From Bacteroidota bacterium (GTDB lineage: Bacteria; Bacteroidota; Bacteroidia; Chitinophagales; Chitinophagaceae): a DNA stretch of 57,870 nucleotides. The stretch is from contig JAUZNZ010000030.1 of NCBI GenBank assembly GCA_030706735.1, forward strand, positions 1-57,870. The letters are read 5' to 3'. Below, piece after piece: positions 6,747 to 35,133 of this stretch. The translations under genes were made by a program, and so were the position numbers. The notes below the pieces were generated by a model. It was not told the origin of the DNA. It ran no database searches and worked only from the letters and a program-made list of their open reading frames with translations. The stretch's first letter is position 1. Every line of letters starts with the position of its first letter.

Positions 6747-7028
6747 ATGAGCGAGATTTCCCTCGGAGACGCCTTGAAGAAGTTCCTCGACCAGAGCCCC
6801 TTGAAAGGTTCCATCCGCGCCTTGCAGATCGAGGATGCCTGGGAACAGATCATGGGCAAGACCATCGCGCGTTATACGGACAAGATCCAGATCCATGGAC
6901 ATACCCTGTTCATCAATACCTCCGTCGCTCCCCTTCGTCAGGAATTGGTCTATCAGAAAGAAAAAATAATCCAGCGTGTCAACGAGGCCATGGGAGATTC
7001 CATGATCAAAGAAGTGGTGATCAAGTGA
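6747..7028 (+). CDS. DUF721 domain-containing protein
   Basis: 93 residues, starting MSEISLGDALKKFLDQ; the whole protein is a DUF721 domain (DciA-related N-terminal fold), with the conserved W in IEDAWEQIMGKTIARYTD and the basic-hydrophobic LRQELVYQKEKIIQRVNE. DUF721 proteins are often found beside recF/gyrB and DciA relatives load the replicative helicase; the short Bacteroidota version may act in the same way, which is inference. The ATG at 6747 was chosen because residues upstream of it do not resemble the family. It follows recF by 76 bases and its end overlaps the convergent permease gene by 8 bases. Confidence 0.9.
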   Translation: MSEISLGDALKKFLDQSPLKGSIRALQIEDAWEQIMGKTIARYTDKIQIHGHTLFINTSVAPLRQELVYQKEKIIQRVNEAMGDSMIKEVVIK

Positions 7029-8067
7029 TGGCCACTCGCGGGTCCACCCATCCATAAAGCAGGTCCGCCAACAGGCCGATCAGGATGAAGAAAAAGGACG
7101 TAATGAGGACAGACCCCATCACGACGGGAAAGTCCAGCTTCTCCAGCGCATCGACGGTCACCTTCCCGATCCCATGCCAGCCGAAAATATACTCTGCGAA
7201 GAAGGCGCCCGCCAGCAATTCCGCAAACCAGCCCGTCACCGCGGTGATCACCGGATTCAACGCATTCCGCAGGCCATGCCGCCAGACCACCGTCCTGCCG
7301 CCCAGACCCTTTGCATACGCCGTCCGGATATAGTCCTTGTCCAGCTCATCGAGCAGGGCGCCTCGCGTGAGTTGAGCGATGATGGCCATGGGCCGGATGC
7401 CCAGCGTAATGGCCGGCAGGATCAGGTTGGCAAGCTGCAGCTGCCTGCCGGAGAAAGGATCGGTATCGAAAAGCCTGCCGGTAATATGCAATCCGGTATA
7501 AGGGCCGAGTAGGAATCCGAACACGTAGGCGATGATGATGCCCATGAAGAATGACGGAACGGAAATGCCCAGCACGCTCACGAATATCGCGGAGCTGTCC
7601 ATCCAGGTGTTCTTCTTCAGCGCGGCCAGCACGCCGAGCAATACGCCGAACAACGTGGCGATGATCATCGCCGCAACGGCCAGCACGATCGTGCCCGGCA
7701 GCGCCTCCATCAGGATCTCACCCACATCCCGTTTCGTTTGATAGGAACGCCGCAAATAGGGCCACTTGATGCCAATGCGCGTTTCGCCTCCCACGAACAG
7801 CCCCCGTAGTCCCTTCTCCGCGATCTCCTTCCTGGAATGGATGCCGATCGGGGACAGATCGTCCAGGTAATAAACAAATTGCTTCCAGAGGGGCTGATCG
7901 AGATAGAGTTCCTTACGGATATTCTCCTGCGTAGCGGCATCCGCCCGCTGTCCCATGATCAGGCGCGAGGGATCTCCGAAACCCTGGAAAAGAAAGAATA
8001 CGACGACCAGTACGCCCAGCATCACCAGGAGCCCATAGATCGATCGCCTGAGAAAGTACCTGGTCAT
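7021..8067 (-). CDS. ABC transporter permease, DppB/OppB type
   Basis: 348 residues, six predicted membrane helices (first at about residues 9-29, then four or five clustered after residue 120, last near the C-terminus). It starts MTRYFLRRSIYGLLVMLGV as DppB proteins do and carries the EAA-like loop around KDYIRTAYAKGLGGRTVVWRHGLRNALNP, which contacts the ATPase. It has the family insertion before the second helix. Normally it works with a DppC permease, two ATPases and a binding protein for oligopeptides or nickel; none is in the window, so partners must be elsewhere. DoxX-like gene 6 bases upstream on the same strand. Confidence 0.94.
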   Translation of the reverse strand: MTRYFLRRSIYGLLVMLGVLVVVFFLFQGFGDPSRLIMGQRADAATQENIRKELYLDQPLWKQFVYYLDDLSPIGIHSRKEIAEKGLRGLFVGGETRIGIKWPYLRRSYQTKRDVGEILMEALPGTIVLAVAAMIIATLFGVLLGVLAALKKNTWMDSSAIFVSVLGISVPSFFMGIIIAYVFGFLLGPYTGLHITGRLFDTDPFSGRQLQLANLILPAITLGIRPMAIIAQLTRGALLDELDKDYIRTAYAKGLGGRTVVWRHGLRNALNPVITAVTGWFAELLAGAFFAEYIFGWHGIGKVTVDALEKLDFPVVMGSVLITSFFFILIGLLADLLYGWVDPRVAIT

Positions 8068-24210: not shown

Positions 24211-24716
24211 TGGACATGACTCCTGCCCTCCGCAAGCTGGTGCTGCTCGCGCATATCACCGCCTCCGTCGCCTGGTCCGGCGCCGTGGCCGCCTTCCTGG
24301 CCCTGGCTATCACAGGTCTTAACAGTGCGAACGCACAGATCGTCCGATCCTCCTATCTGGTCATGCCACCCATCACCTGGTATATCATCATACCCCTCGC
24401 CTTCGCCTCCTTGTCTTCCGGCGTCGTGCTCTCCCTGGGTACCAAATGGGGACTATTCCGATATTATTGGGTCCTGGCGAAACTCCTGATAAACAGTTTG
24501 TCCATCCCCATCTTGTTGCTCCATACCCAGGTCATCCGCGCAGTAGCCGGCGCAGCCGCGAAGGCTGCCTTGTCCCCCGCCGATCTCCACGATCAGCGCG
24601 TTCAGCTCGTGACTATTTCCATCGCCGCCCTGCTGGCGCTGCTCGCCGCCGTATTCCTGTCCGTTTACAAGCCCCGCGGCCTGACCCCGTATGGCCAGCG
24701 TAGTCCGCTCAAATAG
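24210..24716 (+). CDS. Four-helix membrane protein (DUF2269-like)
   Basis: 168 residues, starting MDMTPALRKLVLLAHITASVAWSG. Four membrane helices at about 10-35, 50-72, 85-108 and 135-155 dominate. HITASVAWSGA near the start and KWGLFRYYWVLAKL between helices 2 and 3 resemble the DUF2269/CopD-like small membrane proteins. Function unknown. The start overlaps the stop of the microprotein gene by one base. Another frame of the same reading direction is open back to 23880, but that part overlaps the AraC gene and is not coding-like. Confidence 0.75.
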   Translation: MDMTPALRKLVLLAHITASVAWSGAVAAFLALAITGLNSANAQIVRSSYLVMPPITWYIIIPLAFASLSSGVVLSLGTKWGLFRYYWVLAKLLINSLSIPILLLHTQVIRAVAGAAAKAALSPADLHDQRVQLVTISIAALLALLAAVFLSVYKPRGLTPYGQRSPLK

Positions 24717-24744
24717 CCGGAAATTTATTGCGATCTTTGCGTCC

Positions 24745-25317
24745 ATGCGCCTTTATGTCAAAAATATGGTCTGCCAACGATGCGTCCTGGTCGTAAAGCA
24801 GGAGCTCGAAAAGCTGCACCTTCAACCAATACGGATCGTATTGGGGGAAGTTGACCTGCCGCAGCCCCCGACCGATGAACAATTAGACCAACTAAATAGT
24901 CAATTAAAAGCATTAGGCTTTGAATTATTGGACGATCAGAAAAAAAAGCAGATCGAATCCTTCAAAAACCTGATCATCCAGAAAGTTCAAACAGGAGACA
25001 TTGAAGAACATTTCAGCCTTAGCAAATTTCTTTCCAACGCAGTACATAAAGAATATGCTCCCATTACCCGGTTGTTCTCCGAGGTAGAAGGCATCACCAT
25101 CGAGCAGTTCTTCATTTTACAGCGTATCGAAAAGGTCAAAGAGTGGTTGATCTATAATGAATTGACCCTTAGTGAAATTACCTGGAAACTGGGCTACAGC
25201 AGCGTGGCCCACCTTTCCGCGCAATTCAAAAAAGTAACTGGCCTTACGCCAAGCGCCTTCAAAAAAATGGGCGGCAAACGAAATTCAATAGACGACCTTT
25301 CGTCAGCCATCATTTAA
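24745..25317 (+). CDS. HMA-AraC fusion transcription regulator, likely copper sensor
   Basis: 190 residues starting at the ATG at 24745. The N-terminal 65 residues read as a heavy-metal-associated (HMA) fold: MRLYVKNMVCQRCVLVVKQE has the MxCxxC copper-binding pattern (Cys9 and Cys12) and continues as beta-alpha-beta. A linker helix leads to an AraC-type HTH (about 95-180) with LSLSKFLSN-like start, ITIEQFFILQRIEKVKEWL and LSEITWKLGYSSVAHLSAQFKKVTGLTPSAFK. Such a fusion would sense Cu(I) with the HMA part. It lies 75 bases upstream of copA and opens the copper island. Confidence 0.88.
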   Translation: MRLYVKNMVCQRCVLVVKQELEKLHLQPIRIVLGEVDLPQPPTDEQLDQLNSQLKALGFELLDDQKKKQIESFKNLIIQKVQTGDIEEHFSLSKFLSNAVHKEYAPITRLFSEVEGITIEQFFILQRIEKVKEWLIYNELTLSEITWKLGYSSVAHLSAQFKKVTGLTPSAFKKMGGKRNSIDDLSSAII

Positions 25318-25330
25318 ATATAAACCTTTT

Positions 25331-25358
25331 GCAAGATCCTGTAACAATTGCAGGATCT
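25331..25358. promoter_or_regulatory. Inverted repeat between the HMA-AraC gene and copA
   Basis: AGATCCTG (25334-25341) and CAGGATCT (25351-25358) are exact inverted copies with a nine-base spacer, 34 bases before the copA ATG. No T-run follows, so an operator or RNA attenuator is more likely than a terminator. Confidence 0.5.
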
Positions 25359-25392
25359 GCTGATCGAACTTTGGCTCATCAAACGAATAGCC

Positions 25393-27660
25393 ATGCGTTC
25401 CGACAATAAAGATCAAATTGAACCACCCGTCCGCTCGATGCAATTCCCCCTCACCGGCATGAGTTGCGCGTCCTGCGCCGGTTCCATAGAATCAATACTG
25501 AATGCGCAGGCAGGGGTAGCCAGGGCAGTCGTAAATTTTGCCGCTAACAACGTGCTCGTAGAATTTGACCCTGCCATTGTCCAGCCGAAGGATTTGAAAC
25601 TTGCCGTAAATGGTATCGGATATGATATGATCATCGATGATACGGAAGAGCGCCGGGAAGAATTGGAAGACCTGCGCCGGAAAGACCTGGATCGATTACG
25701 CAACCGCACAATAATAGCGATCCTCCTGGCCACCCCGCTCGTGATTATCGGAATGTTTTTCACGCATGTCCCGTATGTAAATTTCATTTTATGGGGGCTT
25801 TCAACGCCGGTTATATTGTGGCTGGGCCGCCAGTTCTTTATAACCGCCTGGAAGCGTGCAAAACATCGATCCGCCAATATGGATACGCTGGTGGCCTTGA
25901 GTACGGGTATGGCTTACCTGTTTAGCCTCTTTAATATGCTGTTCCCGGAGTTCTGGGAGAGCAGGGGGCTGAAAGCGCATGTTTATTTTGAAGCCGCTTC
26001 AGTGGTGATTGCCCTTGTCCTGTTAGGCAAGCTATTGGAAGAAAGGGCCAGGGCGAAGACCTCATCGGCGATCAAAAAGTTGATCGGTCTGCAGCCGAAT
26101 TCAGTACATATCGTCCACGCAGACGGTCATACCATGGAAATCCCCATCTCCCGGGTTAAGATCGGCGACGTATTGCTGGTTAAGCCAGGGGAAAAGATAG
26201 CCGTGGACGGCATCGTGAAGGAGGGGCAATCCTATGTGGATGAAAGCATGATAACGGGTGAACCGATACCCGTTCTAAAGGAAAAGAGCAGCAGGATATT
26301 TGCCGGGACCATCAATCAGAAAGGCAGCATTCAGCTGGCAGCCGAAAAAGTGGGCGGCGATACGTTACTGGCTCAGATTGTCAAAAAGGTGCAGGAGGCG
26401 CAGGGCAGCAAAGCGCCGGTACAAAAACTGGTAGATAAGATCGCCGGCATCTTTGTACCCATCGTGATCGGCATTGCCGTTCTGGCCTTTATTGCATGGG
26501 GCATATGGGGCGGTCAAAATGGCTTCACCCAGGGGCTTCTGGCCGCGGTCACCGTTTTGGTGATTGCCTGTCCCTGTGCATTGGGATTGGCGACGCCTAC
26601 GGCAATCATGGTCGGAGTGGGCAAAGGGGCCGAAAACGGGATCCTGATCAAGGATGCGGAAAGCCTGGAATTATCCTATAAGGTTAACGCCATAGTCCTC
26701 GATAAGACGGGAACGGTAACGGAAGGCAAACCTGCCGTATCCGATATCTACTGGCTCAACAATCCAAAAACAGAGCTTGAGAATATCCTGTATAGTATCG
26801 AGCAATCATCCGAACATCCATTGGCGGAAGCCGTAGTAGCCCATCTCAGGCCAAACGCGCGGCTGGTCTCCTTGACGGGCGTCTACAGCGTGACAGGCAA
26901 AGGAATTCAAGCCATCCACGAGGGCACGACCTACTATGTTGGCAACGAACGCTTCCTGGAGGAAAAGAACTGCGCGGTCACTGCAGAACTTCGCGAAAAA
27001 GCCGGGATATGGGCCGGTGACGGAAAAACGATCATCTACTTTGCAAAAGGTCAGGATACGATAGCCATACTGGCTATCTCCGACCAGGTGAAGCCTTCCT
27101 CCAAAGACGCCGTATACGCTTTGCAGAACATGGGCATCGAGGTATACATGCTGACCGGGGATAATCGCCAAACGGCCGCGGCGGTAGCCGGCCAGGTCGG
27201 CATTAAGGAATATCGGGCGGAATGTATGCCGGATGAAAAAGCCGCGTTTATCAGGCAATTGCAGGAACAAGGCAAAGTCGTCGCGATGGTGGGGGACGGC
27301 ATCAATGATAGTCAGGCGCTGGCCCAGGCAAACGTGAGCATGGCAATGGGCAAAGGAACCGATATAGCGATGGATGTGGCGAAAATGACGCTGATGAGCG
27401 CCGACCTTTCCCGAATTCCGGCAGCTATCCGGTTGTCAAAAATGACGATCGCCACCGTTCGCCAAAACCTGTTCTGGGCATTTGTCTACAATATTATCGG
27501 CATTCCCATTGCAGCAGGGGTATTATACCCGTTTACGGGGTTTCTGTTGAATCCAATGATCGCCGGTGCGGCCATGGCATTAAGCTCTGTTTCCGTTGTC
27601 ACGAACAGTTTGCGATTGAAACGTGTTAAATTAATGCGCCATAATAATCTCAATAGATAG
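25393..27660 (+). CDS. copA: Cu(I)-exporting P1B-type ATPase
   Basis: 755 residues from the ATG at 25393. One N-terminal HMA domain (GMSCASCAGSIESIL, about 22-85), eight membrane helices, the actuator TGEPIPV motif, CPC in transmembrane helix 6 (Cys393-Pro-Cys395), DKTGT with phosphorylated Asp437, the SEHPLAEAV ATP-site His-Pro, and the hinge GDGINDSQALAQA. The helix 7-8 MSSVSVVTNSLRL-type end is the Cu/Ag P1B-1 signature. It pumps Cu(I) or Ag(I) from the cytoplasm to the periplasm, where the Cus-like pump encoded downstream can take over. The open frame before the ATG belongs to the leader. Confidence 0.97.
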   Translation: MRSDNKDQIEPPVRSMQFPLTGMSCASCAGSIESILNAQAGVARAVVNFAANNVLVEFDPAIVQPKDLKLAVNGIGYDMIIDDTEERREELEDLRRKDLDRLRNRTIIAILLATPLVIIGMFFTHVPYVNFILWGLSTPVILWLGRQFFITAWKRAKHRSANMDTLVALSTGMAYLFSLFNMLFPEFWESRGLKAHVYFEAASVVIALVLLGKLLEERARAKTSSAIKKLIGLQPNSVHIVHADGHTMEIPISRVKIGDVLLVKPGEKIAVDGIVKEGQSYVDESMITGEPIPVLKEKSSRIFAGTINQKGSIQLAAEKVGGDTLLAQIVKKVQEAQGSKAPVQKLVDKIAGIFVPIVIGIAVLAFIAWGIWGGQNGFTQGLLAAVTVLVIACPCALGLATPTAIMVGVGKGAENGILIKDAESLELSYKVNAIVLDKTGTVTEGKPAVSDIYWLNNPKTELENILYSIEQSSEHPLAEAVVAHLRPNARLVSLTGVYSVTGKGIQAIHEGTTYYVGNERFLEEKNCAVTAELREKAGIWAGDGKTIIYFAKGQDTIAILAISDQVKPSSKDAVYALQNMGIEVYMLTGDNRQTAAAVAGQVGIKEYRAECMPDEKAAFIRQLQEQGKVVAMVGDGINDSQALAQANVSMAMGKGTDIAMDVAKMTLMSADLSRIPAAIRLSKMTIATVRQNLFWAFVYNIIGIPIAAGVLYPFTGFLLNPMIAGAAMALSSVSVVTNSLRLKRVKLMRHNNLNR

Positions 27661-27691: not shown

Positions 27692-28108
27692 ATGAAAAAG
27701 TTCGTAACGACCATATTGGCCCTCGTCTATCTCACTACATCAGTCGGAGCAACCATCCATTGGCATTATTGCATGGGTAAACTGATCTCTTGGGGCTTAA
27801 CCGATCGGGCTACCGGGAATTGTTCGTACTGCGGCATGCCCAAAAGCAATCACGACAACCATGCCCGGTCAGGCAGGAACGGTTGCTGCAAAGACGAGCA
27901 CAAGCACATTAAGCTGGATAAAGATCAAAACCTCACCGGATCCGCCTATAAACTGCCGCCTCTTCCCTTGAACATCCCGGCTACACACCCGGCCCCGCTC
28001 ACGGATACCTTCGTTTCTGCATATACAGTGATCTACCCCACGTCCAATGCGCCGCCGGACCCGGTCAAAGTGCCCGCATTCCTTCGCAATCGCAATTTCC
28101 GCATTTAG
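27692..28108 (+). CDS. HYC_CC_PP-type secreted protein, Cys/His rich
   Basis: 138 residues with a signal peptide (MKKFVTTILALVYLTTSVGA). The mature N-part has IHWHYCMGKLISWG (the HYC motif), then CSYCGMPK, a His-rich segment SNHDNHARSG, NGCCKDEHKH (the CC motif) and a Pro-rich PPLPLNIP (the PP motif). These features define a Bacteroidota family that NCBI calls HYC_CC_PP; its function is not known. Cys and His clusters and its position between copA and the RND pump suggest a periplasmic copper-binding protein; that is inference. It starts 31 bases after copA. Confidence 0.88.
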   Translation: MKKFVTTILALVYLTTSVGATIHWHYCMGKLISWGLTDRATGNCSYCGMPKSNHDNHARSGRNGCCKDEHKHIKLDKDQNLTGSAYKLPPLPLNIPATHPAPLTDTFVSAYTVIYPTSNAPPDPVKVPAFLRNRNFRI

Positions 28109-28204: not shown

Positions 28205-29491
28205 ATGGTTCATAAATTAATTGAGCTGTCCCTCCGCAACAGGTACGTGGTGCTCGTCATAGCGCTGGGCCTGTTCGTCTGGGGAATACTTGCGGTAAAG
28301 CAAAATCCGGTAGATGCCATACCGGATCTTTCCGAAAACCAGGTCATTGTATTCACCGAATGGATAGGACGAAGCCCCCAGATCATCGAAGACCAGGTCA
28401 CCTACCCGCTGGTGAGCAATTTGCAGGGTATACCCAAAGTAAAGAACATCCGGGGCACTTCGATGTTCGGCATGAGCTTCGTTTACGTGGTCTTCGAAGA
28501 TAACGTGGATATCTATTGGGCCCGCACCCGCGTGCTGGAAAGATTGAACTACGCGCAGCGATTATTGCCGCCCGGCATAACCCCGGCGCTTGGACCGGAC
28601 GGCACCGGCGTGGGTCATATTTTCTGGTATCATCTGAATGCGCCGAAGATGGACCTTGGCGAACAACGGGCATTGCAGGATTGGTACGTCAAATTTGCCC
28701 TGCAAACGGTTCCGGGCGTGGCGGAAGTCGCTTCTTTCGGCGGTTTTGAAAAGCAATACCAGCTTGTCGTCGACCCGGTTAAGCTGCAGTATTATAATCT
28801 TTCGCTCATGGATATCATAACAAAGGTGAAGGCCGGCAATAGCGACGTCGGAGGGAGAAAATTTGAAATGAGCGATAGGGCCTATATCATTCGGGGACTG
28901 GGCTATATCAAAAATAAGGAGGATATCGAAAGCATTGCATTGGCCAATAATGGCGGCATACCGGTGCGTGTCAGAGATGTTGCCACCGTGCAAATGGGAG
29001 GCGATTTGCGGCTCGGCATATTCGATGCCAATGGACAGGGAGAAGTAGTAGGCGGCATCGTGGTCATGCGTTACGGGGAAAATGCGGACAAGGTGATCAA
29101 CGCCGTAAAAACGAAAATGACCGATGTGCAAAAAGGCTTGCCCGCAGGGGTCACGTTTAAGATCGATTATGATCGCAGCGACCTCATTGAGGCGGCCATC
29201 GGCAACATAAAGGATAAGCTCATCGAAGAGATCAGTATCGTATGCATCATCGTGATCCTTTTTCTTTTGCATTGGCGGAGTGCCATGAGCATTATCATCC
29301 AGATACCGATCACTATCGGGATCAGCTTTATCCTCCTCAATGCATTTGGCCTTTCCTCGAATATCATGTCACTGACCGGCGTGGCGCTCGCCATTGGGGT
29401 CATCGTGGACAATGGCATCATTATGAGTGAGAATGCCCATCGGCATTTGTCCGAATGGCAAAACAGTCAGCCCCCTAACCAGTCAATATGA
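28205..29491 (+). CDS. CusA-type RND metal efflux pump, N-terminal half
   Basis: 428 residues covering the first part of a CusA/CzcA pump: transmembrane helix 1 (about 12-30), the first periplasmic loop with NPVDAIPDLSENQVIV and YPLVSNLQGIPKVKNIRGTS, then helices 2-4 at about 340-410. Asp402 in AIGVIVDNG is the transmembrane helix 4 proton-relay residue (E. coli CusA Asp405). The protein stops after SENAHRHLSEWQ and a short polar tail, in the cytoplasmic loop between helices 4 and 5. The second half is the next gene, overlapping by ATGA (29488-29491). In most bacteria this is one protein of about 1,040 residues. Confidence 0.93.
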   Translation: MVHKLIELSLRNRYVVLVIALGLFVWGILAVKQNPVDAIPDLSENQVIVFTEWIGRSPQIIEDQVTYPLVSNLQGIPKVKNIRGTSMFGMSFVYVVFEDNVDIYWARTRVLERLNYAQRLLPPGITPALGPDGTGVGHIFWYHLNAPKMDLGEQRALQDWYVKFALQTVPGVAEVASFGGFEKQYQLVVDPVKLQYYNLSLMDIITKVKAGNSDVGGRKFEMSDRAYIIRGLGYIKNKEDIESIALANNGGIPVRVRDVATVQMGGDLRLGIFDANGQGEVVGGIVVMRYGENADKVINAVKTKMTDVQKGLPAGVTFKIDYDRSDLIEAAIGNIKDKLIEEISIVCIIVILFLLHWRSAMSIIIQIPITIGISFILLNAFGLSSNIMSLTGVALAIGVIVDNGIIMSENAHRHLSEWQNSQPPNQSI

Positions 29492-31431
29492 ACAATAAAG
29501 CAAATAAACGAAAATGGTGGAGGTCGGATTATCGGAAGATCCCGGAAGCCGAACGCCTGAGCATTATTGAGCGCGCATGCAAGCAGGTTTCCCGCGGGGT
29601 ATTCTTTTCGACCGTCATCATCATAACGTCCTTTCTGCCGGTCTTTTTGCTGACGGGTCAGGAAGGAAAACTATTTCATCCCCTGGCATATACCAAATCC
29701 TTTATCCTGATGGTGGACGCCCTCCTGGTGGTGACGCTCGCCCCGGCATTGATCTCCTTTTTTATGCGGGGTAAATTCAAGGCGGAAACGGCTAACCCGA
29801 TCAACCGTTTTTTGGAGGGGGTCTATGAGCCAATCATACGCGCTTGCATCAAATGGCGAAAGACGACGATTGCCATTAATCTCATCGCCCTGATGATCAG
29901 CATCCCGATGCTGATGAGCCTGGGAACGGAATTTATGCCCCCCCTGGATGAAGGCACCGTCCTGTTCATGCCTGTTACCTTGCCCGACGTCTCCAACGGA
30001 GAGGTTAAACGCATCTTGCAGGTACAGGACAAGATCATCTCCACCGTTCCGGAAGTAAGAACGGTCTTGGGAAAGGCCGGGAGAGCCAACACGGCTACCG
30101 ACAATTCCCCCGTCAGCATGATCGAAACCATTGTCATGCTGAAACCAAAAGAGGAATGGCGGAAAGGGGTCACAAAAAATGACATCATCAATGAACTGAA
30201 TAGCAAATTGCAGATACCCGGGGTGACCAATGGGTGGACGCAACCCATTATCAACCGTATCAATATGCTTTCGACCGGCATTCGTACGGATGTGGGCGTA
30301 AAGGTATACGGCCAAAACCTCGACAGTATTTATGCGTTCTCGCAGGTAATAAAAAAGGAACTGGAAGGCATCAACGGCGTAAAGGATCTGTATGTCGAAC
30401 CCATTACCGGCGGCAAATATATCGATATCCGCATCAAACGGGAACAGATCGCCCGCTACAACCTGAGCGTGGATGATGTCAATTCGGTCATTGAAACCGC
30501 CTTGGGAGGCGTTCAGATAACCACTACCATTGAAGGCCGCCAGCGCTTCTCGGTAAATGCCAGGTTCGGACAGGATTTCCGGAACAATATCGAGGCATTA
30601 AAGCGGTTGCAGGTACAAACGACGGGTTTTGGCCCCATCCCTTTGCAGGCCGTCGCGGATGTGGCCGTGACCGAAGGGCCGCCCATGATCAATTCGGAAA
30701 ATGCATTGCTTCGTGGCACGGTGTTATTTAACGTGCGCGAGAGGGATCTGGGCAGCACCGTGTCGGAAGCACAGCAACGATTGGATCAGGTGATCGGAAA
30801 AATGCCAACAGGTTATTTCCTGGAATGGAGCGGCCAATACGAGAACCTGATACGAGGCGAAAAGACCTTGAAGATGATCTTGCCGGTCGTGCTCCTTGTT
30901 ATCTTCTTCAGCATGTATCTTGCCTTCCATTCTGCCAGGGAAGCCCTCCTCAGTCTGATCACCATTCCCTTTGCGCTCATCGGAGGAGCCTACCTGATCT
31001 ATTTCTGGGGAGTGAACCTGTCGATCGCCGTGGCCGTTGGATTTATCGCCTTGTTTGGTCTGGCGGTCGAAACCAATATCGTCATGATCATCTATCTCAA
31101 TGACGCCATGCAGCAGCTGGTAGCCAAAAAAGGGAACTCCGGGACAGCAATTACCAAAGAGGATCTGAGAGAGTACACGATCCACGGCGCTGCTAAGCGG
31201 TTGCGTCCCAAGATCATGACCGTGAGCGTGACGCTCTTCGCGCTCGTTCCGATCTTATGGAGCTCCGGCGTAGGCAGCGACGTCATGAAACCCATCGTGC
31301 TTCCCATGGTAGGAGGCGTCATTACGTCCGCCATCTATATTTTGTTGGTTACCCCCCTGGTCTTTTTGATGGAGAAGGAATATGAGTTAAAGAAATTCGG
31401 CAAAATAGACGTGCAGGAAATAACCCATTAA
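29488..31431 (+). CDS. CusA-type RND metal efflux pump, C-terminal half
   Basis: 647 residues starting in the cytoplasmic loop before transmembrane helix 5 and running to the normal C-terminus. After a basic start (NNKANKRKWWRSDYRK) it resumes CusA sequence at SIIERACKQVSRGVFFSTVI. Three methionines at 161, 211 and 260 (LFMPVTLP, VSMIETI, INMLSTGIRT) match the E. coli CusA copper triad Met573, Met623 and Met672 in both context and spacing (50 and 49), so Cu(I)/Ag(I) transport is strongly suggested. The second half also has the transmembrane helix 7-12 part and ends normally. A TAA four codons upstream in its frame shows the start is a true re-initiation. Confidence 0.93.
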   Translation: MNNKANKRKWWRSDYRKIPEAERLSIIERACKQVSRGVFFSTVIIITSFLPVFLLTGQEGKLFHPLAYTKSFILMVDALLVVTLAPALISFFMRGKFKAETANPINRFLEGVYEPIIRACIKWRKTTIAINLIALMISIPMLMSLGTEFMPPLDEGTVLFMPVTLPDVSNGEVKRILQVQDKIISTVPEVRTVLGKAGRANTATDNSPVSMIETIVMLKPKEEWRKGVTKNDIINELNSKLQIPGVTNGWTQPIINRINMLSTGIRTDVGVKVYGQNLDSIYAFSQVIKKELEGINGVKDLYVEPITGGKYIDIRIKREQIARYNLSVDDVNSVIETALGGVQITTTIEGRQRFSVNARFGQDFRNNIEALKRLQVQTTGFGPIPLQAVADVAVTEGPPMINSENALLRGTVLFNVRERDLGSTVSEAQQRLDQVIGKMPTGYFLEWSGQYENLIRGEKTLKMILPVVLLVIFFSMYLAFHSAREALLSLITIPFALIGGAYLIYFWGVNLSIAVAVGFIALFGLAVETNIVMIIYLNDAMQQLVAKKGNSGTAITKEDLREYTIHGAAKRLRPKIMTVSVTLFALVPILWSSGVGSDVMKPIVLPMVGGVITSAIYILLVTPLVFLMEKEYELKKFGKIDVQEITH

Positions 31432-31446
31432 GTACAATCATTGATC

Positions 31447-32700
31447 ATGAAACCTATTATTTCGCTTTGCCTGCTCATCGGCGCCTTTCATCAGGGGGCA
31501 ACAGCACAAACCCTGAAATTGACCGATATTTTGGATACGATCAGGCGATCGCATCCTTCAGTAAAAATGTACGATGCAGAGATCCGATCGATGGATGCGG
31601 CAGCTAAAGGCGCTCATAGCTGGATGGCCCCCGAGATTTCAACCGGCTTCTGGATGACGCCTTATAACGTCAACTTGTGGAAAAGAGACGCCTCGGGTGC
31701 AGCAGGCATGGGGCAATACATGATCTCGGGGGAACAAATGTTCCCCAATAAGAAATACAACGATGCCAATGCGGCCTATATGGAGTCCTTGTCCTCCGTA
31801 GAGAAGGAAAATAAGAATGCCGGGCTGAATGAACTGTTTGCCGCCGCAAAGGAGAATTATAATAGCTGGATCGTCATCCAAAAGAAAATAGCCCTGATCG
31901 AAGAGGACGGCAGACTGCTGCAACTGATGGTCACCAATGCAGAAACAAGGTATAAGAACGGACTGGGAAAGATCAGCGCGTATTATAAGGCTACGGCGGC
32001 ATTGGCCAACCTGGCCAATTTGCGCGTCATGCTGGAAAACGACGCCATTCAACGACGCATTGCGCTCAATACGCTGATGCACCGGGACAGATCGACGGCA
32101 TTTTCCATCGATACGGCCTATACGGTATCCGACTACAGCGCTACCCTGTTTGACAGTACCCTATTTTACGCAGGCCGCAGCGATATCAAAGCCATTGACA
32201 GGAATATCCAATCGGTGTACCTGAAGGAACAAATGGAAAAGCAGAGTCTTGCTCCCCAGTTCGGCGTGCAGTTCAGTCACATGTTCGGGTTCGGCGGGCT
32301 CCCCCAGCAGTTCTCCCTGATGGGTATTATGCGGATTCCGTTTGCCAGATGGTCGGCCAGGGAAAGCAAAGCAAACATCGAAAGCCTCAGGTGGAAAGCG
32401 GTCTCGCTGGAAGGTCAAAAAGAGGCCATGGCCAATGAATATGCCGGGATGGCCGATGGCATCCGGCAGGATATGGCGGCAAAACAACGGCAGTTGCAAC
32501 TTTTTGAAAAGAACATCATTCCGGCACTGAGAAAGAATTACCAAAGTATGCTCCTGGGATACGAGCAAAATACGGAAGAATTGTTTGCCCTCTATGATGC
32601 CTGGGAAACATTGAACAATACACAACTCGAATACCTGGACCAGGTGCAGCAATTGCTCAGCTTGCAGGTTAACCTGGAAAAGATACTGGAGATTAAATAA
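31447..32700 (+). CDS. TolC-family outer-membrane channel of the Cus-like pump
   Basis: 417 residues with a signal peptide (MKPIISLCLLIGAFHQGATAQ). The mature part is TolC-like: long alpha-helical coiled segments (about 70-190 and 290-400) with two strand regions around 40-70 and 230-270 that form the outer-membrane barrel. Segments such as NAGLNELFAAAKENYNSWIV and LGKISAYYKATAALANLAN fit the helical barrel. It gives the exit duct for the RND pump encoded just upstream; the start is 15 bases after the pump gene ends, and the adaptor gene follows 7 bases downstream. Confidence 0.9.
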   Translation: MKPIISLCLLIGAFHQGATAQTLKLTDILDTIRRSHPSVKMYDAEIRSMDAAAKGAHSWMAPEISTGFWMTPYNVNLWKRDASGAAGMGQYMISGEQMFPNKKYNDANAAYMESLSSVEKENKNAGLNELFAAAKENYNSWIVIQKKIALIEEDGRLLQLMVTNAETRYKNGLGKISAYYKATAALANLANLRVMLENDAIQRRIALNTLMHRDRSTAFSIDTAYTVSDYSATLFDSTLFYAGRSDIKAIDRNIQSVYLKEQMEKQSLAPQFGVQFSHMFGFGGLPQQFSLMGIMRIPFARWSARESKANIESLRWKAVSLEGQKEAMANEYAGMADGIRQDMAAKQRQLQLFEKNIIPALRKNYQSMLLGYEQNTEELFALYDAWETLNNTQLEYLDQVQQLLSLQVNLEKILEIK

Positions 32701-32707
32701 GTCGATC

Positions 32708-33976
32708 ATGAAATGGAAACGACCTGTTCTGGTTTTTGCGGTTGGGGCGCTTTTTGCGGCGGCTTCCTGCCGAACCAAACAAAAGGAGGCAGAGCAGCCG
32801 GTTCGGCGGGCACAAGATATACCGGCACAAGACATATATACCTGCTCCATGCATCCGCAGATCCATCAGGATCATCCCGGCAACTGTCCCATTTGCGGCA
32901 TGATCCTCGTCAAAAAAGACCGGGGCTCTGCCGGAACGGACGTCAATACGCTGCAGCTCGAAACCCTGCTGAGACCCACCGATCGGTTCGTCGTGGCCTC
33001 ATTGCCCGTTATCACGCTGCACCAACGGACAGATAGCGCGCCCATCAGAGTTTACGGCGCCATCGAATACGATACCCGCGCAGAAGGCATCCTGTCCGCC
33101 CGGGTCTCCGGACGAATTGAAAAGATGTATGTCAGGTACAGGTATCAGGCGGTACAAAAGGGCCAGAAGATAATGGACATTTACAGCCCGGAATTACTCA
33201 CCGCGGAACAAAACCTTCTTTTCTTATTGGAGAACGATTCAAATAATTCCTCCTTTATTCAGGCCGCCCGGGAAAGGCTATTGCTGTTGGGAATGAGCGA
33301 TCAGCAAGTGCAGGAGCTCATACGAACCCGCAAACCGCTGCTTTCCGTCGGCATATACAGCAATTACAGCGGGCATGTGCACGACGCCGGAATAATGCGG
33401 CAGGACCTGCAATCCAAAGAAATGAATGCCGTAGAATCGACTACGCAGGAATTATCTCTCAAAGAAGGGATGTATATCCAAAAAGGGCAACCCATTGTCA
33501 TGATCATGAACCATGATCGCGTTTGGGCGGCGCTGCAGATATTTCCCAATGACCAGGCGCTGGTCAGGGTCGGAGATCCGGTCCGGCTGATCCCGGAAAC
33601 GGACACGACCTCGGTGACCTATGGGAAGATCGATATGATCGAACCTTTTTTCCGGCCTGGCAGCAAAACGCTCACGGCACGGGTATATTTTCACAATATG
33701 AATATGTTGCCCATCGGCAGTCATTTGTCCGCCGAGATCTCCACCGGCAGCCAGGTTGCCCGGTGGTTGCCCCGCACAGCGGTACTCTCGCTGGGATTGA
33801 CCGAAGTGGTTTTCTTGAAAAGGGCCGGCGGGTTCATGCCGCACAAAATTACGACCGGCATCCGCAGCGGCAACGATGTCCAGGTGCTGAGCGGTATGCA
33901 GGATTCAGATTCGGTGGCGGCAAACGCGCAATATTTCATGGACAGCGAAAGTTTCGTAAAACCTTCTTCAAAATGA
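32708..33976 (+). CDS. RND periplasmic adaptor with heavy-metal-binding domain (CusB-like)
   Basis: 422-residue lipoprotein (signal ends AAASC, Cys21). Directly after it comes a heavy-metal-binding domain with YTCSMHP and CPICGM, the motif of CusB-type adaptors of Bacteroidota, then the barrel-sandwich and beta-barrel adaptor domains (VYGAIEYDTRAEGILSARVSGRIEKMYV; WAALQIFPNDQALVRVGD). It joins the inner-membrane pump to TolC and may pass Cu(I) to it. ATGA overlap with the second adaptor (33973-33976). Confidence 0.93.
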   Translation: MKWKRPVLVFAVGALFAAASCRTKQKEAEQPVRRAQDIPAQDIYTCSMHPQIHQDHPGNCPICGMILVKKDRGSAGTDVNTLQLETLLRPTDRFVVASLPVITLHQRTDSAPIRVYGAIEYDTRAEGILSARVSGRIEKMYVRYRYQAVQKGQKIMDIYSPELLTAEQNLLFLLENDSNNSSFIQAARERLLLLGMSDQQVQELIRTRKPLLSVGIYSNYSGHVHDAGIMRQDLQSKEMNAVESTTQELSLKEGMYIQKGQPIVMIMNHDRVWAALQIFPNDQALVRVGDPVRLIPETDTTSVTYGKIDMIEPFFRPGSKTLTARVYFHNMNMLPIGSHLSAEISTGSQVARWLPRTAVLSLGLTEVVFLKRAGGFMPHKITTGIRSGNDVQVLSGMQDSDSVAANAQYFMDSESFVKPSSK

Positions 33977-35133
33977 TAAACCCTTCCTTTTCTTCACCGG
34001 GCCGACGCCTCCTGGAGTTAACGCTTTATGCAGGCGTACTTACAGCGGTCGTTCTATCATCCTGCAAGCCGGCTCCCCGCAATCCCCCGCCGGCATCCGG
34101 CAATCCCCCACCGGCGCCTGCCAAAGGCGCGAATGACGAAATTCACCTGAATGATCGACAGATCTTGCTGGGCAACATACAACTGGATACGATCAGCAGC
34201 GGAACGATCGGCGACAAGCTCGTGCTCACGGGCACGTTGAATTTTAACCTGCAGCGGCTTTCCACCGTTAGCACCCGGGTGGAAGGAAGGGTCGAAACCC
34301 TGTACGTTAAGAAAACGGGCGATTTCGTGCACAAAGGCGACAAACTCTACGACCTGTATAGCGAGCCGCTCAATAGCGCCAAACAGGAATACAAGACCGC
34401 CCTTCAACAACAAAAGACCATCGGCAATTCGCTCATCAACTATGCAGCGATCGTGGAAAGCGCCAGGACCAAATTGCTGCTCTGGGGCATGACGAGGGCC
34501 CAGATCGTGGATTTGGAAACAGCCGCCCGGGTACCGACGGTCACTACGTTCTATAGCCCGGAGGACGGCTATGTCACGGCGGTAAATATTCAGGAGGGCG
34601 GTTATGCCATGGAGGGCGTTCCGATAATCCAGCTCGCCGACTTATCCACGTTGTGGGCGGAGGCACAGGTATACACCACCCAATTGGCTTCCATGAGTAA
34701 GGGTCAGCGCGTTGTCGTCCGGGTCCCCGATCTGGGCGATCTGACTATCCCGGGACGGATCGATTTTATCAATCCTGAGATCAACCCCGATACACGAATT
34801 GACCTGGTCCGGGTTACTGTTCGCAACACCGATAACCGCCTGCATCCCGGCATGCCTGTCTATATTGTGTCCGGCGAGACACGCCATCATGCGATCACCA
34901 TCCCGACCAATGCAGTCCTGACGGACAGCAAAGGCACAACAGTCTGGGTTCAGACCAGGCCTGGCGTATTCGTCGTTCGTATGGTGCTGACGGGAATTAC
35001 CAGCGAAGACAGCACGGAAATAGTGAGCGGCCTGGCTCCGGGTGACGTCGTGGTGAGCAGCGGCGCCTATTTGATCAATAGTGAATACATCTTTGAAAAT
35101 GGGACAAATGCCATGGACGGGATGAAGATGTAG
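33973..35133 (+). CDS. Second RND periplasmic adaptor subunit
   Basis: 386 residues from the ATG at 33973, which overlaps the stop of the first adaptor. A lipoprotein signal ends LSSC; a Pro-rich linker (PRNPPPASGNPPPAPAK) follows. The adaptor fold is clear: LTGTLNFNLQRLSTVSTRVEGRVETLYV (barrel-sandwich), a helical hairpin about 110-165, LWAEAQVYTTQLASMSKGQ (beta-barrel) and a membrane-proximal end VSGLAPGDVVVSSGAYLINSE. Unlike the first adaptor it lacks the CxxC metal-binding domain. Why one pump has two adaptors is not clear; they may form a heteromeric ring. Confidence 0.92.
   Translation: MINPSFSSPGRRLLELTLYAGVLTAVVLSSCKPAPRNPPPASGNPPPAPAKGANDEIHLNDRQILLGNIQLDTISSGTIGDKLVLTGTLNFNLQRLSTVSTRVEGRVETLYVKKTGDFVHKGDKLYDLYSEPLNSAKQEYKTALQQQKTIGNSLINYAAIVESARTKLLLWGMTRAQIVDLETAARVPTVTTFYSPEDGYVTAVNIQEGGYAMEGVPIIQLADLSTLWAEAQVYTTQLASMSKGQRVVVRVPDLGDLTIPGRIDFINPEINPDTRIDLVRVTVRNTDNRLHPGMPVYIVSGETRHHAITIPTNAVLTDSKGTTVWVQTRPGVFVVRMVLTGITSEDSTEIVSGLAPGDVVVSSGAYLINSEYIFENGTNAMDGMKM

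Follow-up and report, generated by a model that had tools for sequence, protein, structure and literature searches.

To our knowledge, RND pumps of the CusA type are known as single chains. CusA of E. coli, the closest described system (HME-RND, TIGR00914; PDB 3k07, 3t51, and 3ne5), is one chain of 1047 aa. We analyzed a window of 57,870 nucleotides from a Bacteroidota genome of the Chitinophagaceae (GCA_030706735.1, contig JAUZNZ010000030.1) in which a permease homologous to CusA over its full length comes in two pieces, encoded by two genes, here termed A and B, and cut in the loop between transmembrane helices (TM) 4 and 5. The likeness to CusA includes the methionine triad, equivalents of Asp405, Glu939, and Lys984, and the adjoining channel and adaptor genes. 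Unlike CusA, the permease has two adaptors, and some of the CusA methionines are absent.

Some membrane proteins of two chains have been described. The available portions of PMC8277102 present SecD/SecF, an RND-superfamily membrane domain of two chains with two six-TM halves, and the MdtBC heterotrimer, an RND pump of two different polypeptides. SecD/SecF is a protein-secretion factor divided into six plus six TM helices, whereas A and B are predicted to be a metal pump divided into four plus eight. The chains of MdtBC are whole permeases, whereas A and B are each a part of one, with partial and complementary coverage of the ACR_tran family; the locus does not encode two full-length permeases of the MdtBC type. 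Split-Doa10 of Kluyveromyces, as described in the accessible part of PMC3464245, is a polytopic membrane protein that underwent fission in a cytosolic loop; the split became fixed in a taxon, and the halves were shown to assemble. Split-Doa10 is a eukaryotic ubiquitin ligase of one genus, whereas A and B make up a predicted bacterial pump found in many families and with apparent re-fusions. No account of a split CusA was found among the papers listed by searches of the open-licence PubMed Central literature (two of the listings giving 30 of 52 and 15 of 17 papers), nor does one appear in the available parts of PMC11213822, PMC6316836, PMC3711429, PMC6260751, PMC8277102, and PMC3464245.

The Copper Cluster and Its Two Permease Genes

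The source genome (5.05 Mb in 100 contigs, 99.98% complete) carries a copper cluster on the plus strand of the window. It begins with an AraC-type regulator (24691..25317; PF12833), a CopA-type copper P-type ATPase (25348..27660; above the TIGR01511 cut-off, with PF00403 and PF00122), and a small HYC_CC_PP family protein (27692..28108; NF047658) located upstream of A. Gene A (28205..29491) and gene B (29488..31431) are followed by a CusC-like outer membrane channel (OEP; 31441..32700; PF02321), the start of which is that of the mechanical listing, an ATG being present a few codons inside. The region 32708-35133 encodes two different CusB-like adaptors in tandem, and these could form a mixed adaptor ring. 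The first, CusB1 (32708..33976; PF16576, PF19335), has a heavy-metal-binding (HMBD) domain. For the second, CusB2 (33973..35133; PF16576), we set the start at the ATG overlapping the CusB1 stop as ATGA (33973-33976), the same way as A and B overlap; the listed GTG start is at 33763.

Profile searches and alignment to the CusA structures confirmed A and B as predicted complementary halves of a CusA-type HME-RND pump. Together they cover the whole family, since ACR_tran aligns to A over positions 2-420 and to B over positions 418-1019 of 1021. The TIGR00914 profile (HME-RND, CusA/CzcA) is likewise covered from 1 to 427 by A and from 426 to 1034 by B, out of 1051 positions. A scored 468.5 bits and B 599.2 bits, each on its own part of the profile, and neither reached the curated cut-off of 701.45 bits. 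Instead of a single chain of about 1,040 residues there are two genes encoding 428 and 647 aa. A and B thus do not form a single chain and score under the family cut-off, and we class them as a split variant of HME-RND, the lineage in which their sequence places them; this variant should work like CusA. CusA was the best solved relative of both halves, in line with descent from the CusA lineage.

With overlapping peaks merged, the hydropathy profile is consistent with four TM helices for A and eight for B, so that the 12 helices and, by family coverage, the two porter halves of an RND permease are found jointly in the two proteins. A would hold TM1-4 with the first periplasmic porter half and Asp402 on TM4, and B would hold TM5-12 with the second porter half, Met161, Met211, Met260, Glu528, and Lys575. 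A preliminary description of this DNA had placed the cut after TM4 and before TM5, which fits the hydropathy. It had also equated Asp402 of A with CusA Asp405, and Met161/211/260 of B with Met573/623/672 at a spacing of 50 and 49 residues; the alignment to E. coli CusA gave exactly these correspondences.

The ATGA by which the start of B overlaps the stop of A (29488..29491), also reported there, is borne out by the coordinates of the open reading frames. Simple read-through had been ruled out on account of a TAA four codons upstream of the B start. This TAA does exist (29476-29478) as the next upstream stop in the B frame; however, the decisive point is that B lies in another frame than the TGA of A, and the TAA is additional.

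A profile search of the assembly for an intact cusA elsewhere found a single protein above the TIGR00914 cut-off, on contig C46. It is no spare copy in the sense of the methionine triad, since its triad columns hold V, N, and E. Two more RND genes of this genome run off contig ends (C82 and C86), and both scored below the TIGR00914 cut-off.

Occurrence of the Split Permease

The preliminary description had suggested a search for the same split in related genomes, where it proved common. A search of 195 family genomes with B recovered 78 loci, spread over 68 genomes (E 6.6e-223 or better; at most six candidates scored in most genomes). At 76 of the 78 loci the permease was not one long frame (416-690 aa) and the cut lay in the same loop; two of the 76 were B fragments (G194 and G129). 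Only G065 (1057 aa) and G179:C32 (1065 aa) had one long frame. With A as query (E <= 1e-130), the same 68 of the 195 genomes were found as with B. The carriers of the split include assemblies consisting of a single contig, e.g., G055 and G141.

A sample of 295 genomes from the class gave 47 loci in 41 genomes at E <= 1e-180, and overlapped with the family sample in four family genomes. Here 44 of the 47 loci were split, with frames of 631-728 aa, as judged by frame length and, where the sequence was fetched, by the junction. The three loci read as one frame were those of G285, G199, and G205, the last being cut by a contig start. In a phylum sample of 395 genomes, 99 of which matched at E <= 1e-160, frames of 643-728 aa were found at identities of at least 56%, including two such loci outside the class (G640 and G655). 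Frames outside the class at 41-54% identity measured 1031-1101 aa, except for two of 913 and 720 aa. Intact homologues outside the split clade had 41-54% identity; divergent loci within the class at 52-54% identity were also split (G411, G291, G240, G350, G288, and G410).

Named carriers of the split include species of Niastella, Flavobacterium, Sphingobacterium, Pedobacter, Chryseobacterium, Kaistella, Runella, and Chitinophaga, although one search for named carriers favours near relatives because it was based on the best 80 of 567 matches. Plasmid-borne copies were found in Mucilaginibacter, Runella, Haliscomenobacter, Adhaeribacter, and Hymenobacter. Five plasmid records annotate each half alone as an "efflux RND transporter permease subunit," and on a Spirosoma plasmid neither half is in the gene table, which is incomplete. 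The pump of Pelobium manganitolerans (L155) nests in the Chryseobacterium/Kaistella group on a very short branch. Because of this placement and of the several copies on plasmids, horizontal transfer is likely.

Some copies were broken or fragmentary. On the plasmid of Hymenobacter sp. HDW8 (L183) B is in pieces, and the B of G129 (G129:C151), the A of G018, the third A of G141 (C1:5016050), and the A of L136 are also affected; these may represent either real decay or sequence error.

An arrangement opposite to the split was seen on an Adhaeribacter radiodurans plasmid (L236; NZ_CP055152.1 31694-36088), where a CusA/CzcA-type protein of 1464 aa beside the split pump carries both an RND permease domain and an outer membrane channel (OEP) domain in a single polypeptide. 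Other genomes contained A-like matches with frames of about 1,450-1,490 aa.

Gene Junctions and Unlinked Halves

The junctions were analyzed in 225 loci, which gave 150 deduplicated adjacent split pairs and 20 rows first read as intact; set aside were 23 duplicates, 11 loci where B matched only in part, and 16 rows lacking a complete A next to B. The duplicates include L115 (Terrimonas) and L164 (Hydrotalea), which repeat L021 and L081 from genomes of the family sample; this makes Chitinophagaceae the probable identity of that family. Two of the rows first read as intact (L117 and L123) are split, the tblastn match of B having run into A. Eight of the 16 rows set aside for lack of a complete A turned out to hold separated pairs, and L231 brought these to nine. 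Eight others were left out, mostly because of cuts at contig ends (L027, L039, L121, L132, L136, L137, L143, and L188); the A of L136 is divided in two, and L188 (G205) resembles a single frame.

All three relative frames of A and B are used by the 150 adjacent pairs (75/51/24). With the B start taken as the ATG nearest the stop of A, the spacing ranged from -14 to +196 nt: 46 pairs overlap, 90 are 0-12 nt apart, and 14 are 22-196 nt apart. The -4 arrangement (ATGA) of the window was found in 32 of the 150 pairs.

Six genomes (G640, G655, G438, G413, G292, and G462; loci L226-L231) have the order B-CusC-CusB1-CusB2-...-A, in which A starts 3.6-5.9 kb downstream of where B ends; each of the genomes has a single A of this type. 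In three further loci another gene lies between A and B, namely L173 (Chitinophaga japonensis), L195, and L218. The intervening gene is of methyltransferase type in L173 (7265-7996) and L218 (minus strand, 6967-7662), and has no Pfam match in L195. L173 and L218 are two distant members, and a similar methyltransferase-type gene follows A in L228. Since they lie far apart or have a gene between them, A and B are separate proteins in these nine loci.

The tail of A had a median length of 17 residues and the head of B of 29 in the 130 loci that could be read by motifs. These figures hold for the main clade only, because the motifs misfit 18 loci, largely of a divergent branch, and four loci were left out by name. 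For comparison, the whole TM4-TM5 loop measured 26 residues in five intact outgroup rows and 28-37 residues in the intact rows of the ingroup. In 124 of the 130 loci the head of B carried a net positive charge (mean +3.9).

CusC, CusB1, and CusB2 follow B in 92 of the 107 split loci with enough flanking sequence, and they do so in 7/7 intact ingroup loci. The adaptor pair is therefore a feature of the clade rather than of the split itself.

Selection and Residue Conservation

Both halves are under strong purifying selection in relatives of the window. The median dN/dS was 0.021 for A (maximum 0.051; 32 of 40 close pairs computable) and 0.024 for B (maximum 0.058; 35 of 40 computable), dS being saturated in the rest of the 40 pairs and between the window and its nearest relatives.

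The methionine triad (Met573, Met623, and Met672) and Asp405 were kept in all 161 split rows, the window included. Among the periplasmic transport residues, a list of which was taken from the accessible part of PMC11213822, Arg83, Glu567, Asp617, Glu625, and Arg669 were kept in 161/161, and the Lys678 position is Arg in 161/161. Glu939 was kept in 159/161 and Lys984 in 152/161 (not read in the other nine), and the window has Asp405, Glu939, and Lys984. These three residues we take to be the proton relay of CusA. Of the methionines in the transmembrane and periplasmic pairs of CusA, Met391 (158/161), Met410 (160/161), and Met1009 (161/161) were mostly kept, Met486 was kept in 72/161 and Met501 in 9/161, and other residues predominate at the positions of Met271, Met403, and Met755. 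Because some CusA methionines are lost and Lys984 was not read in 9/161 rows, the metal path may differ from that of CusA.

Phylogeny of Split and Intact Forms

A FastTree phylogeny of 179 rows separated 168 ingroup rows (161 split and 7 intact) from 11 intact outgroup rows at a support of 100. It required six changes between the split and intact states. Shuffling gave a mean of 17.3, and in 0 of 500 cases was the number as low as that observed. An IQ-TREE quick tree of 84 of the 179 rows also gave six changes.

The single-chain forms of the ingroup are nested in the split clade at five places: L187; L186; L050; L083 together with L141 and L171; and L118 (Flavihumibacter profundi). With the root placed on the intact outgroup, the simplest reading that fits the tree is one fission and five later re-fusions. 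AU tests under LG+G4, with groups named after the first tree had been seen, rejected a placement of all intact forms on one side (p 2e-37) and a single re-fusion (p 4e-71). That re-fusion was repeated suggests that both the split and the single-chain form work. The six loci with A far downstream of B (L226-L231) formed one clade (FastTree support of 100).

Discussion

A and B are two separately encoded, conserved, and co-occurring halves under strong purifying selection. It is very probable that they are the two subunits of one copper/silver-type HME-RND efflux pump, which would assemble from both chains and which would go back to one ancient event that split the gene of a single-chain CusA within the part encoding the cytoplasmic TM4-TM5 loop. 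The view put forward in the preliminary description, that this is a functional split RND and not a pseudogene, is supported by the recurrence of the split in related genomes and by the lack of the methionine triad in the one protein of this assembly above the CusA/CzcA cut-off; on this view the halves would assemble and export copper.

In such a pump the protomer would be a pair of A and B, and a trimer of pairs would dock to CusC and the CusB-like adaptors. The methionine triad resides wholly in B and the proton relay is divided, with Asp402 of TM4 in A and Glu528 and Lys575 in B. If the protomer is CusA-like, proton coupling would have to cross a non-covalent interface, because the relay residues are divided between A and B. 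The topology was presumably easily kept, since the cut placed both new ends in a cytoplasmic loop and left an even number of TM helices on either side. B has gained a Lys/Arg-rich N-terminal head, which probably retains the beginning of TM5 on the cytoplasmic side. Translation of B in the window is probably coupled to that of A at the ATGA. Coupled translation is plausible for this junction and for most adjacent pairs; the family as a whole does not need it.

The halves might instead have ceased to make up a CusA-like pump and be separate proteins by now, with separate tasks such as work with other partners. Such a divergence would fit the up to three A and three B in some genomes and the remote position of A, at the end of the cluster, in one clade. 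It is nevertheless unlikely, given that the same 68 of 195 genomes hold both A and B, that five re-fusions bring back one chain, and that relay residues are kept on both sides. We give an equally small chance to a two-chain pump that does assemble and transports a metal other than copper or silver. The full methionine triad in 161/161 split rows and the CopA-type ATPase adjoining the pump in the window argue against it, even though several membrane methionines of CusA are missing.

A programmed ribosomal frameshift or stop read-through, joining A and B in one chain, is very improbable. The window would need a -1 shift inside the 13-nt open stretch shared by both frames, and no heptamer of the X XXY YYZ type was found in 29401-29500; moreover, the relative frames vary among relatives, and an A located downstream of B, as in six genomes, cannot yield one chain. 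Least probable of all is a mistake in sequencing or assembly, or an ordinary cusA that has recently become a pseudogene by frameshift, for although a single base decides the frame in this genome and a few copies are broken elsewhere, such a single-base error is excluded by the same-loop cut at 76 of the 78 family loci, single-contig assemblies among them, by the very low dN/dS of both halves in relatives, and by the six genomes in which the halves lie kilobases apart.

For the pump of two subunits, it is a tentative and rather doubtful idea that the split is not neutral, and that cells can regulate or combine the proton-carrying half (A) and the metal-binding half (B) independently of each other. 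Where several A and B are present, hybrid pumps might then be made from exchangeable parts on a ring of CusB1 and CusB2, and gene position might set the A:B ratio in the clade where A closes the cluster.

The findings also expose a blind spot in annotation, as both halves fall under the CusA/CzcA cut-off and are listed singly as permease subunits in five plasmid records. The repeated return to one chain is a rare case in which both fission and fusion of a membrane pump can be traced on one tree. Altogether, the split permease is a natural two-chain form with wide conservation, in which the cut separates the TM4 aspartate from the remaining relay, and it suggests that the link between TM4 and TM5 need not be covalent. 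Because one can delete, tag, or exchange each half in trans, it would offer a ready-made system for questions of proton-metal coupling.
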